From contig NZ_JAKZFR010000001.1 of assembly GCF_022808935.1 (NCBI RefSeq), forward strand, positions 372,001 to 436,000: a DNA stretch of 64,000 nt. Reading direction: 5' to 3'. This stretch comes from Geothrix sp. SG200 (GTDB lineage Bacteria; Acidobacteriota; Holophagae; Holophagales; Holophagaceae). The position numbers were made by a program, and so were the translations under genes. Within the stretch, counting starts at the first letter, position 1; the number at the start of each line of letters is the position of its first letter. Below, in pieces: positions 4,251 to 51,360 of this stretch. The notes beneath the pieces are model-generated. The model ran no database searches, was not told the origin of the DNA, and saw only the letters and a list, made by a program, of their open reading frames with translations.

Positions 4251-4799
4251 CTAAAGCAGCCGTTTCTGGCCCTTGGGGTGGCTCAGGACGACCTCCTTGA
4301 CCCGGTGGATCCAGCCCGGCCGGTCCTTGGGATCCAGGCGCTCGAAGGGGATGGACCGTTCCTCCAGGAGCTTGTCCACCAGCTTGTCGATGGCCTCGGC
4401 GAAGAAAGTGTCCGTGTCCCGCACGCCGTCCGCCGCCAGGTGCCCTGAGAACGGCACCTTGAAGAGCAGGTCGTAGCCCTTCATCCAGTGGTGCATGAAG
4501 CGCTCGATGGGCAGCTGGCGGCCGAAGGCCAGCATCATGTAGGCGTAGTTGTCGAGCACGCTTCGGTCGCACACCACCACGTCATGCTGGCTGGCGGAAC
4601 GGATCTCCTCGGCCATCTGGGTGAAGAAGATCCAGGTCTGCGCCTCGAGGGAGGTCTTCTGGTTGATGGGCAGGGGCGAGAGGCGCGCCACCTCCTTCAC
4701 GATGTCCACATGGACCCCGTCCCGCTTGAGGGCCGCGGCCAGCTCATAGCAGAGCGTGGTCTTGCCCACGCCGTGCGTGCCGATGAAGGCGATCTTCAC
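4251..4799 (-). CDS. P-loop ATPase/kinase-like protein (AAA_28-type)
   Basis: 182-residue nucleotide-binding protein. The Walker A motif GTHGVGKTT starts at residue 7, and VVVCDRSVLDNYAYM near residue 80 is a Walker B/kinase-like strand, as in small AAA_28 or deoxynucleoside-kinase-like proteins of unknown substrate. The start is GTG 4799: an ATG-started reading extends upstream only through the adjacent repeats, whereas GTG 4799 has GGAGG six bases before it and gives the standard VKIAFIGTHG beginning. The GTG overlaps the TGA of the preceding 46-codon repeat ORF (GTGA), and its ribosome-binding site is buried in the hairpin at 4802-4816. It is the last gene of the gpmI-PAS-repeat chain. Confidence 0.85.
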   Translation of the reverse strand: MKIAFIGTHGVGKTTLCYELAAALKRDGVHVDIVKEVARLSPLPINQKTSLEAQTWIFFTQMAEEIRSASQHDVVVCDRSVLDNYAYMMLAFGRQLPIERFMHHWMKGYDLLFKVPFSGHLAADGVRDTDTFFAEAIDKLVDKLLEERSIPFERLDPKDRPGWIHRVKEVVLSHPKGQKRLL

Positions 4800-4936
4800 T
4801 CGGCACCTCCGGTGCCTCGCCCTTCGGGCTTCGCCTTCGGCAAAGTGGCCCTCCATGTATCGGCCAGCGCACCGCGCTGTCCTCCCACGCGCTCGCGCTC
4901 GTGGACATGGAGCCTTTGCTGTCGCTGCATGCTCAC
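4796..4936 (-). CDS. 46-codon coupling ORF, repeat copy 2
   Basis: Second of two tandem mini-ORFs. It starts at GTG 4936, overlapping the TGA of copy 1 (GTGA), and stops at TGA 4798-4796, overlapping the GTG of the ATPase gene. The predicted peptide is Arg/Gly/Ala-rich, near-identical to copy 1, and resembles no protein family I know. Each copy carries its own GGAGG and start. It may be a real leader peptide that couples translation, or a by-product of a repeat that happens to stay in frame. Treat expression as unproven. Confidence 0.4.
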   Translation of the reverse strand: MSMQRQQRLHVHERERVGGQRGALADTWRATLPKAKPEGRGTGGAE

Positions 4937-5069
4937 TCGGCACCTCCGGTGCCTCGCCCTTCGGGCTTCGCCTTCGGCAAAGTGGCCCTCCATGTATCGG
5001 CGAGCGCACCGCGCAGTCCTCCTGCTCGCTGGCGCTCGTGGACATGGAGCCTTCGCTGTCGCTCCGTGC
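4796..5069. repeat. Two tandem 137-bp direct repeats
   Basis: Copies at 4796-4932 and 4933-5069 are mostly identical, with differences clustered in the middle and at the promoter-proximal end. On the minus strand each copy ends in a perfect hairpin, GGCACC-GGA-GGTGCC (4802-4816 and 4939-4953), that contains the GGAGG ribosome-binding site of the next start codon, followed by GTGA. The repeat thus copies a complete stop/start junction. The stretch TGTCCTCCC followed by a GCTCG-rich segment (about 4877-4900) recurs near 51201 in the tRNA-linked array. Confidence 0.9.
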
Positions 5070-5073
5070 TCAT
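4933..5073 (-). CDS. 46-codon coupling ORF, repeat copy 1
   Basis: First of the two mini-ORFs downstream of the PAS sensor gene. ATG 5073 overlaps the sensor's TGA stop (ATGA), and the ORF ends in TGA 4935-4933, which overlaps the GTG of copy 2. It has the same length as copy 2 (141 nt) and a nearly identical second half. No signal peptide, membrane segment or known motif is visible. The overlaps at both ends suggest translational coupling; whether the peptide matters is unknown. Confidence 0.4.
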   Translation of the reverse strand: MSTERQRRLHVHERQRAGGLRGALADTWRATLPKAKPEGRGTGGAE

Positions 5074-6683
5074 GATCCGTCCCCTTCCGTCCTCTGGGCA
5101 CGGAGTGCCTGCATTTCATCCCTGAGCTTCTGGGCGCAGTCGGGGCAGACGCCGTGGGTGAAGGTGGCTTCCGTGTGCTCGGAAAGGTAGGTCTCGATCT
5201 GGCTCCAGTAGCCGTGGTCGTCTCGGACCTTCTTGCAGCTGCTGCAGATGGGGAGCATGCCGCTGAGCTGCTTCACGTCGGCCAGCGCCTGGGTCAGCCC
5301 TTCGATCAGCCGCTCCCGCTCCGCCTCCATGCGCCGGCGTTCCGTGATGTCGCGGGTGACGCCCTGGAAGCCCAGCAGGCGTCCATCCTCGCCCCAGACG
5401 ATCCGCCACTGCGCTTCGACCTGGATCTCCCGGCCATCCCTGCGCCTCACGGTCGCCTGCATCAGGTCATCCTCGAAGGGTTGGGACCCCGGGGGGAGCT
5501 GGTGGGCCCGGGCCATGCGCTCCCGCACGATTTCGCTGCCCTTCCGGGAAAGGGCTCGCTCCTCGGGACCGAGGGCCATGAATTCTTCGGGGGTCCAACC
5601 CCGCTGGCGGAGGATGGAGGGGCTGATGTAGGTGAGCCGCCCCTCGGGGTCCATGGACCAGATGACATCCCCGAGGTTCTCGGCCAGCAACCGGTACTTG
5701 GCCTCCTGGGCGGCCAGCTGGGCTTGATCCTCCATCTGGCGGATCCAGGAGGAGCGGGCCTGCCAGCCCAGGGCCAGGGTGAGGGCGGCCAGGCCGAGGA
5801 CCGCCGCGGCGGCGAAGGCCGCCTGGTGGCGCCAGGTCCGGAGGTACTCGGACTGGGCCAGGCCCACGAGGATGTAGAACACGGGCCGGCCGGTCTTCCG
5901 CATGACGTAGGTCCGGTGCACGCCATCCAGGACCGACCGCTCGCTGAAGTGGAAGGTGCTGTTCCCTGCCTGCACGGCCCGCAGGTAGGTTCCCTGGATC
6001 CGAGTCGTGCCGGTCATCCGCTGTTGGCCCTCGAAGTCCGGGTACCGGGCCAGGAGGCTGAGATCCTGGCCCCGCAGGGACACGGATCCGTGCCGGCCCA
6101 CATCCAGGTGGGACATGGTCCGGGCCAGCTGCTCCGTGGGGAGCATGGCGAAGACCCCGCCCGCGAACCGCCCATCGGCGCGGACCATCCGGCGGGCCAG
6201 GACGATGACCCAGGCTCCCGAGGGCCCCCGGACGGGCCGCGAGATGGCCAACTCATCCCCGGCCAGTGCCTTGAGCTGGGCGAAGAAAGGCTGGTCCCCC
6301 ACGTTTCCGGGGGCCTGGACCGGGGCGGCCTGCAGGACCCGGCCGGTGGCATCCGCCACCTGCAGGGAGGTCAGCAGGCCCACCCGCCGGAACTGGGTCT
6401 GGACGAGGGCTCCGATCCGGTGGTGGCCCGGGTCCTGGTGGGCTTCGTCCTGGATGGACTGGAGGGTCAGGTCGATCCGGTGGACCGTGTCCTCCACGTT
6501 GTCCTCCAGGACCTCAGCCAGGTTCTGCGTCGCGGCCTCCGCGCGCTCCACGTAATGCCGGTGACTCAGGACCAGCAGCCACGCCGCGGTGAAGGCGGCC
6601 AGGAGGTTGAACAGGACCAGCAGTGCCCCCACGCCCTTGATGAAGGTGGACGGGCTGAGCCTGGGGCGGGGCCGGTCGGTCAT
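5070..6683 (-). CDS. Membrane sensor with PAS domain and C-terminal Cys cluster
   Basis: 537-residue membrane sensor. A transmembrane helix near residues 14-38 and a second near 287-310 enclose an extracytoplasmic Cache/PDC-like sensing region. A PAS domain follows at about 335-455, with the typical ending GFQGVTRDITERRRMEAE. The last 60 residues hold two CxxC pairs (ICSSCKK and GVCPDC) around a GYW motif, a small probable zinc-ribbon seen at the end of some PAS proteins. No histidine kinase, GGDEF, EAL or methyl-accepting domain is present, so the output is unknown. It starts 9 bp after the gpmI stop and overlaps the next mini-ORF by ATGA. Confidence 0.8.
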   Translation of the reverse strand: MTDRPRPRLSPSTFIKGVGALLVLFNLLAAFTAAWLLVLSHRHYVERAEAATQNLAEVLEDNVEDTVHRIDLTLQSIQDEAHQDPGHHRIGALVQTQFRRVGLLTSLQVADATGRVLQAAPVQAPGNVGDQPFFAQLKALAGDELAISRPVRGPSGAWVIVLARRMVRADGRFAGGVFAMLPTEQLARTMSHLDVGRHGSVSLRGQDLSLLARYPDFEGQQRMTGTTRIQGTYLRAVQAGNSTFHFSERSVLDGVHRTYVMRKTGRPVFYILVGLAQSEYLRTWRHQAAFAAAAVLGLAALTLALGWQARSSWIRQMEDQAQLAAQEAKYRLLAENLGDVIWSMDPEGRLTYISPSILRQRGWTPEEFMALGPEERALSRKGSEIVRERMARAHQLPPGSQPFEDDLMQATVRRRDGREIQVEAQWRIVWGEDGRLLGFQGVTRDITERRRMEAERERLIEGLTQALADVKQLSGMLPICSSCKKVRDDHGYWSQIETYLSEHTEATFTHGVCPDCAQKLRDEMQALRAQRTEGDGS

Positions 6684-24348: not shown

Positions 24349-24622
24349 GACCATGTGGGTCGCGAAGCAGGCTCCGGTGGAGCCTGCGGAGCGGGGCCCC
24401 ACAGGGAGCGAGTTTGACCAGGTGGGTCGGAGAGCAGGCTCCAGGGGAGCCTGCGGAGCGGGGCCCCACAAGGAGCGAATCATGCTGAACTCGCGCGCTG
24501 GACTAATCGGGCTCCGAGCCGATGCCGTGGGTCGCGACCATGTGGGTCGCGGAGCAGGCTCCGGGGGAGCCTGCAGAGCGGGGCCCCACAAGGAGCGAAT
24601 CATGCTGAACTCGCGCGCTGGG
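24349..24622. repeat. Hairpin-module repeats between rsmI and the SprT-like gene
   Basis: Three copies of a module (near 24367, 24434 and 24553) consist of GCAGGCTCC, 3 bases, GGAGCCTGC (9-bp stem), then GAGCGGGGCCCCACA and GGAGCGA. From about 24413 the block repeats with an exact 120-bp period, ending in the true gene end. The gap 24280-24622 contains no other gene; open frames across it are products of the repeat. Confidence 0.9.
24503..24535 (-). pseudogene. Second displaced 3' end of the SprT-like gene
   Basis: 33 bp reading ATHGIGSEPD-stop on the minus strand, in frame to TAG. It differs from the true end in three codons, one of them synonymous (TCG/TCA). It lies exactly 120 bp from the true end. 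Confidence 0.75.
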
Positions 24623-25018
24623 CTACTCGGGCTCTGAGCCGATGCCGTGGGTAATGCTCTGGTGCCCGAACACCTCCCAGGCCAGCTGGCGGAACCGCTC
24701 CGTGTGGCCCCAATCCTTTTCCCGGTCCATCCAGAGCTTGAAATGGATCAGCTCGTGCTCGAGGATGCGCCGCTGGATGTCGTCGGGCGTGTGGCAGTTC
24801 ATCCCGCAGACCGGCTGGGGCCAGGGCCAGTCCCGGCGGCGGAGCAGGGGGATGCTGAGGCGGATCTCCGGATGCCACTTCCCCCGCGAATCCTTCTCGA
24901 TCACGAAGAGCCCCGCGCAGCGGGCCATGCGGGGCGACCAGATGACGGGTGGCGGCGTAAGGTCCCAGCCCGCGCCGTCGAGGATGGCCTGGGCGCGGGC
25001 GCGGAGCGTGAGGTGCAT
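24623..25018 (-). CDS. SprT-like zinc-metallopeptidase-type protein
   Basis: 131 residues from ATG 25018 (GGAGAC just upstream). RRILEHELIHFKLWMDREKDWGHTERFRQLA contains HExxH-type HELIH and a downstream GHTERF, the arrangement of SprT-like/WSS1-like metallopeptidases in which a third His completes the zinc site. The N-terminal half includes IWSPRMARCAGLFVIEK and a lone CGMNCH. SprT-like proteins can act on DNA-protein adducts, but no DNA-binding domain is visible here. Its 3' end has been copied twice downstream. Divergent from the flavin reductase-like gene. Confidence 0.8.
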   Translation of the reverse strand: MHLTLRARAQAILDGAGWDLTPPPVIWSPRMARCAGLFVIEKDSRGKWHPEIRLSIPLLRRRDWPWPQPVCGMNCHTPDDIQRRILEHELIHFKLWMDREKDWGHTERFRQLAWEVFGHQSITHGIGSEPE

Positions 25019-50750: not shown

Positions 50751-50827
50751 GTACCCGTAGCTCAGTTGGATAGAGCGTTGGCCTCCGAAGCCAAAGGTCG
50801 CTGGTTCGAATCCAGTCGGGTGCACCA
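50751..50827 (+). tRNA. tRNA-Arg(CCG)
   Basis: 77 nt with an encoded CCA end. The acceptor stem GTACCCG/CGGGTGC has one G-T pair; D-arm, anticodon stem TTGGC/GCCAA with loop CTCCGAA (anticodon CCG at 50785-50787), and T-arm GCTGG-TTCGAAT-CCAGT. It reads CGG codons. The terminator stem begins inside the CCA. Pieces of the 3' half recur in a tandem array downstream. Confidence 0.96.
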
Positions 50828-50867
50828 ACAAAGCCAGGGGGGCCGCATGGCCCCCCTGGCTTTGTTG
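50826..50867 (+). terminator. 19-bp perfect terminator stem of tRNA-Arg
   Basis: Arms 50826-50844 and 50849-50867 pair completely around GCAT; the 3' arm ends CTTTGTTG. Its right half (GGCCGCATGGCCCCC, then CTTTGTTG) is repeated in each downstream unit. Confidence 0.85.
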
Positions 50868-50874
50868 ATGGTCT

Positions 50875-51136
50875 CTGGATTCGAACCAGCGAGTGGACCG
50901 CCCGAGACGCGCCTAGATGGCGCGTCGAAGCGGGCCGGCGGCGCGAAGCGGCGCGGTTCGAATCCCGACCGGGCCGCATGGCCCCCATGCCTTTGTTGCG
51001 GTTCCCTGGATTCGAACCAGCGAGTGGACCGCCCGAGACGCGCCTAGATGGCGCGTCGAAGCGGGCCGGCGGCGCGAAGCGGCGCGGTTCGAATCCCGAC
51101 CGGGCCGCATGGCCCCCCTGCCTTTGTTGCGGTTCC
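50875..51136. repeat. Two tandem 131-bp units derived from the tRNA-Arg 3' end
   Basis: Units 50875-51005 and 51006-51136 are almost identical. Each begins with an exact inverted copy of the tRNA T-arm (CTGGATTCGAACCAGCG). It then has a hairpin GACGCGCC-TAGAT-GGCGCGTC (first at 50906-50926), a GC-rich stretch, a direct T-arm/acceptor-like segment (50954-50978 and 51085-51109), and a half-copy of the tRNA terminator. No gene lies between the tRNA and 51415; open frames here are repeat artefacts. Confidence 0.92.
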
Positions 51137-51307
51137 CTGGATTCGAACCAGCGGGTTGGCCGCCGAAGGCGCTGCCTCCGTCTGACAGACAGGGCCAGCG
51201 CTGTCCTCCCGCTCCTCAGCTCCGCTCGTTGGCGGAGCCGGAGCCTCGGTGGCGCCGGCGCGGGCCAAGGCGGCGCAGCCGCACGGTTCGACTCCCGACC
51301 GGGCCGC
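51137..51307. repeat. Third, diverged unit of the tRNA-derived array
   Basis: Starts with the same inverted T-arm (51137-51153) and ends with a direct T-arm-like copy (51284-51307), but the interior is longer and different. It includes TGTCCTCCCGCTC followed by CGCTCGT, resembling the 137-bp coupling repeat near 4877-4900. Confidence 0.75.
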
Positions 51308-51360
51308 CTGCCCCCCGCCGGTGGGAAGTTCCTTCCTGTGAAAACATTTGTGGGGGCGCC

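Follow-up and report, generated by a model that had tools for sequence, protein, structure and literature searches.

A dispersed repeat, probably a mobile mini-cistron, located on start codons in Geothrix and other Holophagaceae

In Geothrix sp. SG200, two short open reading frames (mini-ORFs) lie in tandem between a sensor gene and an ATPase gene, and they belong to a repeat family that occupies the start codons of host genes throughout the genus. On sequence grounds, we consider the repeat fairly likely to be a translated mini-cistron, dispersed and probably mobile, which hands ribosomes on to the host gene by termination-reinitiation. Its geometry, conserved frame, covarying hairpins, start-codon location and pairs of empty and filled sites are seen directly in the sequences; translation, coupling and mobility are inferred.

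The sensor/ATPase junction

The window, the whole stretch of DNA analysed, comprises 64,000 nucleotides, and all features of the locus lie on its minus strand. The sensor gene (5070..6683; Pfam dCache_1 and PAS) ends with a TGA that overlaps the ATG of mini-ORF 1, and an SD-like GGAAGGGG (5081..5088) is read ahead of this first ATGA. Mini-ORF 1 (MSTERQRRLHVHERQRAGGLRGALADTWRATLPKAKPEGRGTGGAE; unit 1, 4933..5073) and the GTG-started mini-ORF 2 (VSMQRQQRLHVHERERVGGQRGALADTWRATLPKAKPEGRGTGGAE; unit 2, 4796..4936) each contain 46 codons and a stop. The downstream ATPase gene (4251..4799; Pfam AAA_28) takes its GTG start from unit 2. The original prediction described two 141-nt mini-ORFs, a 137-bp period and three 4-nt stop/start overlaps, all of which we reproduced from the window coordinates. 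The overlaps are ATGA at 5073-5070, GTGA at 4936-4933 and GTGA at 4799-4796, and the tandem repeat (4796-5072) has 2.0 copies of period 137, which are 93% alike.

Each 137-nt unit of the window consists of a 74-nt core, running from RTGA to RTGA, and a 63-nt palindromic in-frame insert, which is missing from the 74-nt units of relatives. The nested insert locates at 4987..5049 in unit 1 (CTCCATGT...ACATGGAG) and at 4850..4912 in unit 2. It is followed by the covarying hairpin H1 (CTTTGCC-GAA-GGCGAAG in unit 1, 4966..4982; unit 2, 4829..4845) and the hairpin H2 (CCC-GAA-GGG in unit 1, 4957..4965; unit 2, 4820..4828). The predicted GGCACC-GGA-GGTGCC hairpin before each GTGA was found at 4939..4953 in unit 1 and at 4802..4816 in unit 2, the latter 5' of the ATPase GTG. 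These SD hairpins (GGCACCGGAGGTGCC) fold with -12.4 and -13.0 kcal/mol, respectively (z -2.1 and -2.7 against shuffles). A search of seven loci with the Rfam 15 covariance models returned nothing at E<=1. Since the unit recurs genus-wide with identical frame geometry, the arrangement in the window is more than chance.

Comparison of 40 full-length ATPase loci revealed that 18 are occupied by units and the others are empty. Occupied loci carry one to seven units (one in L067, three in L068, seven in L102), and L069 and L079 are also ATPase loci with units. At the empty sites L065, L066, L070, L071, L082, L090, L092 and L095, the sensor stop and the ATPase start overlap directly (GTGA or TTGA), and in L065 GGAAGGGG stands directly before the ATPase start. 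At the empty sites L064 and L073, a spaced ATPase start lies behind a GATACT box. Junction occupancy changes at least 10 times on the ATPase gene tree, with a shuffled mean of 13.4. At the junction, units with lengths of 2 mod 3 (71, 74, 131 and 137 nt) overlap the next start, and those with lengths of 0 mod 3 (45, 75 and 138 nt) are fused in frame to the next unit. The proposal that the repeat can add copies without loss of coupling is supported by these relatives, which have zero to seven units with the junction intact; frame-breaking copy variants, which the original prediction named as a refutation, were sought there, and none breaks coupling. L079 and L085 carry the element though no sensor gene is recognised beside the ATPase gene, so the element is not tied to the sensor.

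Family spread, hairpins and host genes

In a BLAST search of its own genome, the window copy looks almost unique, and a covariance model, built from 22 units, was needed to find others. The window genome holds few copies: the window pair, one degenerate copy and one 131-nt unit, which precedes a DUF58-like gene and, in common with many other units, follows a TAGGCT box placed 12 nt ahead of the unit's ATG. BLAST with the window repeat detected related pieces in 24 of 25 genomes of the genus and in none of 16 outside it. The covariance model matches all 47 Geothrix genomes, with 1-31 matches per genome. Class-wide, it matches 58 of 93 genomes and 8 of 18 genera, all from one family (Holophagaceae), and none of the 16 genomes from the two other families of the class. 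A pattern scan of one genome per species (approximately 85,000 species) matched only Geothrix/Holophagaceae-type contigs, with Geothrix limicola, G. oryzisoli and G. fuzhouensis among the hits; contigs that have Deltaproteobacteria or Bacillota in their titles align with loci of Holophagaceae. The 5' pattern of the unit was unmatched in viral contigs.

We also observed other repeats. Nested inserts of approximately 57, 63, 66 and 75 nt (L305-L334, L231, L213, L249) are themselves repeated, hairpin-rich and multiples of three. Another tandem repeat of the window (24349-24652; 67 and 120 bp periods), just past a gene end, has units ending in AAGGAGCGAATCATG and may represent another family with start-codon-like ends. 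At 50751-51310, a tRNA-Arg(ccg) precedes a tandem array, 2.5 copies of a 131-bp unit with tRNA-like 3' ends (TTCGAACCAGCGAGTGG), which reaches a tRNA-Asp-like call on the opposite strand.

The three hairpins of the unit covary. In alignment A1, built without fitting to the model, covariation is 0.336 versus 0.142 for shuffled and at most 0.117 for slid structures; in alignment A2, it is 0.251 versus 0.095 and at most 0.061. The family consensus of the SD hairpin has a GGCAC/GTGCC stem (up to 8 bp) and AGGAG as its 5-nt loop, so that the loop displays the SD, whose 3' part continues into the stem. The original prediction of a GGAGG inside a perfect hairpin therefore holds for the window and is refined by this consensus. 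The stem varies through paired changes, and its outermost pair joins column 55 with the initial base of the following start codon. Column 55 in 111 units is C with GTG in 67 and T with ATG in 38. Because of this pairing, the first base of the start codon is part of the element and not of the target alone.

Among 83 distinct ends of strong matches, 73 lie on the start codon of a gene in sense orientation. Host genes were judged by codon-position G+C and Pfam; ORF length alone was dropped as proof of a gene, since a frame of 80 codons opens at 41% of randomly chosen RTGA sites when the DNA is this rich in GC. The hosts include hemC (identified from its N-terminus), dnaE, nuoC, NAD synthase, a Mur-ligase family protein, NAD(P)H-hydrate dehydratase, a biotinyl-domain protein, DnaJ, MFS and AcrB transporters, and cytochrome c7. 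Pfam domains begin within the first residues of several hosts (TANGO2 at residue 1, CN_hydrolase at 2, PHP and DnaJ at 5). Hosts that are essential in other bacteria carry the element on their start codon, and must therefore be expressed through it.

Approximately 10 of the 83 unit ends meet no gene, GTCA-ended copies among them. Copies ending in GTCA, not RTGA, locate at L182:2035-2422, L141:8049-8126, L163:4009-4086 and L196:2080-2158. Those of L182, L141 and L163 sit behind a gene end, L182 has three of them in a 155-nt tandem array, and the SD is degenerate (GGAAG) in some GTCA-ended copies. Meanwhile, the units before TANGO2-domain genes (L170:2095-2172, L173:2015-2092) end with ATGT, the protein starting MC, and the mini-ORF stop lies a few bases further on, so the overlap is longer. 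On the basis of these units, the target is the start codon and not strictly RTGA.

The strong covariation of the three hairpins, and the recurrence of the element before the same genes in several genomes (hemC, the DUF58 gene, nuoC, NAD synthase and AcrB), would also suit a cis-acting RNA or leader-ORF regulon, in which the SD hairpin tunes host-gene translation, for example with growth rate or stress. We regard such a regulon as possible but rather unlikely. Occupancy is patchy at one orthologous site (18 of 40 ATPase loci, with the tree changes given above), copy number there varies from zero to seven, the host genes have no obvious pathway in common, and nested inserts and in-frame fusions are tolerated.

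Empty sites and conservation of the frame

Superimposing filled and empty sites on each other, we notice that empty orthologues of the ATPase gene, the KPFAKDQ gene and hemC show the gene's own start codon at the position of the element. For the KPFAKDQ gene, the empty site (L290) reads ..TAGGCTGGAGGC-ATGAAACCC and the filled site (L282) reads ..TAGGCTGGAGCC-ATGAGTATGAAGCAGG..GGTGCCGC-GTGAAACCC. For hemC, the empty site (L306) is CC-ATGAGACAT, where the hemA-like stop overlaps the hemC start, and the filled site (L309) is CC-ATGAGAACGGAG..GTCGC-ATGAAACAT. Filled sites carry RTG(A) on either edge and empty sites have a single RTG(A), but the R on the right covaries with the element. The L277 copy is shrunken and joined in frame to its gene. 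L284 and L287 look like a six-base in-frame remnant of the element.

From all fetched loci, we cut 182 distinct candidate units, of which 163 are 2 mod 3 in length; in 162 of these, the frame that begins at the first RTG stays open as far as the TGA overlapping the following RTG. Removal of L157, which fails the open-frame test, and L257 as false left an accepted set of 161 units; such units are related by descent, and their counts hence do not represent independent events. The units measure 59, 65, 74, 77, 101, 119, 131, 137, 146, 149, 164, 176, 194, 197, 206, 260 or 281 nt (about 17 lengths in total), and an additional 71-nt unit was seen. Many different nested inserts and deletions have all retained the frame. 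On inspection, the remaining candidates were mostly a false anchor, two units spanned or an in-frame fusion, and L211 (73 nt) is the sole clear frame break among those inspected. Frame 0 of the 161 units has zero stops in 5021 codons, and stops occur in frame +1 of 63 units and frame +2 of 24. As in coupled overlapping genes, the ORFs are co-directional with a 4-nt stop/start overlap, and dispersed copies elsewhere keep the same frame geometry as those at the sensor/ATPase junction.

These frames bear on a second alternative, a REP- or MITE-like mobile repeat acting at the DNA level, which favours RTGA, uses its hairpins for transposition and has an open frame as a by-product of GC-rich sequence. 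Such a repeat would account for a dispersed, palindromic and patchy family with RTGA at both ends and with filled and empty sites. We consider it improbable, however: 73 of the 83 ends lie on gene starts in sense orientation, the lengths of many nested variants remain 2 mod 3, frame 0 lacks stops where frame +1 often has them, a correctly spaced SD is conserved, and Y1 transposase is unlinked.

On the other hand, substitutions in the mini-ORFs show no synonymous bias (synonymous fraction 0.21 observed versus 0.25 expected), so codon-level selection lends translation no support. Judging from the aligned units, it is the open frame and the structure that appear to be kept; the peptide sequence is not conserved and probably does not represent the product. 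The consensus peptide MSTKQERSATLAKPKPEGRGTGGAA has, by inspection, no regulatory codons or amino-acid-specific run, and a leader-peptide attenuator was rejected for want of such a run. That the peptides of 25-46 residues form a functional multicopy family is highly improbable: the open frame is conserved in 161 units, but synonymous changes are not in excess, nested inserts alter the peptide, and the two mini-proteins of the window have zero Pfam matches.

Proposed ribosome hand-over and relation to known elements

For the mini-cistron that we favour, the point of ribosome entry may often be the 5' end of the mRNA. A TANNNT box approximately 12 bp upstream is a sign of leaderless bacterial genes (PMC3160421), and TANNNT begins exactly at -12 in 17 of 56 first units, matching the published sign, on which basis we propose leaderless entry. 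ATG opens 52 of the 56 first units, whereas GTG opens 11 of the 25 units preceded by another unit (Fisher p 2e-4). Many host genes may accordingly be leaderless, in which case the mini-ORF would be entered at the mRNA 5' end and the SD would be used only by the host gene.

We propose that a unit would be placed so that the old RTG(A) of the host gene, which may also be the stop of the upstream gene, becomes the start of the mini-ORF. The 3' end of the element would bring the AGGAG-loop hairpin and a new RTGA, of which TGA closes the mini-ORF and RTG opens the host gene. The ribosome would reach the old start codon through an SD or through coupling or, on many promoters, in a leaderless-looking manner. 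It would then translate the mini-ORF, melt the SD hairpin, halt at TGA and reinitiate at the overlapping RTG. Tandem units could thereby be added without losing the host gene. Overlapping stop/start pairs tested elsewhere displayed strict coupling in 13 of 14 cases (PMC6728339), and models of termination-reinitiation include possible RNA unfolding (PMC6728339, PMC12548453). The strong SD in a loop might also allow the host gene to be initiated independently.

Termination-reinitiation pairs resemble the element in the ATGA/GTGA junction, the upstream SD and the possible RNA unfolding (PMC6728339, PMC12548453). They normally link two functional genes, whereas the Geothrix repeat carries the junction along. 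Rickettsia palindromic elements (RPEs) are likewise small structured open-frame repeats, which keep the frame of the housekeeping genes where they occur at various loci (PMC2229807, PMC10969869), but they are fused inside host proteins, in contrast to a separate mini-cistron that ends on a new start codon. In-frame fusion is a rare exception here (L177, L277). An RPE-like in-frame insert was rejected, nearly all copies having a separate mini-ORF.

MITEs of the ERIC, YPAL and Correia type are interspersed structured repeats of about 100-200 bp, several with ORFs and some co-transcribed (PMC2229807). Unlike them, the Geothrix consensus is without evident terminal inverted repeats; inspection found none between its ends ATGAGCACGAAG.. 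and ..GTGCCGCGTGA. The MITE features reported in PMC2229807 do not include start-codon placement combined with an SD and overlapping codons. REP elements with RAYT are short palindromes near stop codons, which can affect translation (Liang 2015, cited in PMC12306157), whereas the Geothrix element is predicted to be a translated unit with several hairpins. The search for a mobilising enzyme gave no candidate: Y1 transposase (PF01797, Y1_Tnp) was present in just 5 of 47 genomes, zero times in the window genome and zero times in the genomes with approximately 30 matches (G008, G050, G054). REP/RAYT identity was dropped, as Y1 transposase is unlinked and is absent from 42 of 47 genomes, including those of highest copy number.

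In the open-access literature, we found no described bacterial repeat working this way. We tentatively raise the idea, to which we give slightly less than even weight, that the element represents a new class of mobile element colonising start codons, made harmless by a translated bridge that captures the initiating ribosome and returns it to the host gene via the SD hairpin and a replacement start. If so, even essential genes could host it and tandem growth would be tolerated. The family also offers a natural library of more than 150 putatively coupled junctions with covarying SD hairpins for studies of reinitiation. Gene callers could be misled by it, and start codons and small hypothetical proteins at element sites may be misannotated across Holophagaceae. 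If the mini-cistron works as proposed, repeats would have a route into essential operons, along which they could spread with the help of the translation machinery instead of by avoiding genes.
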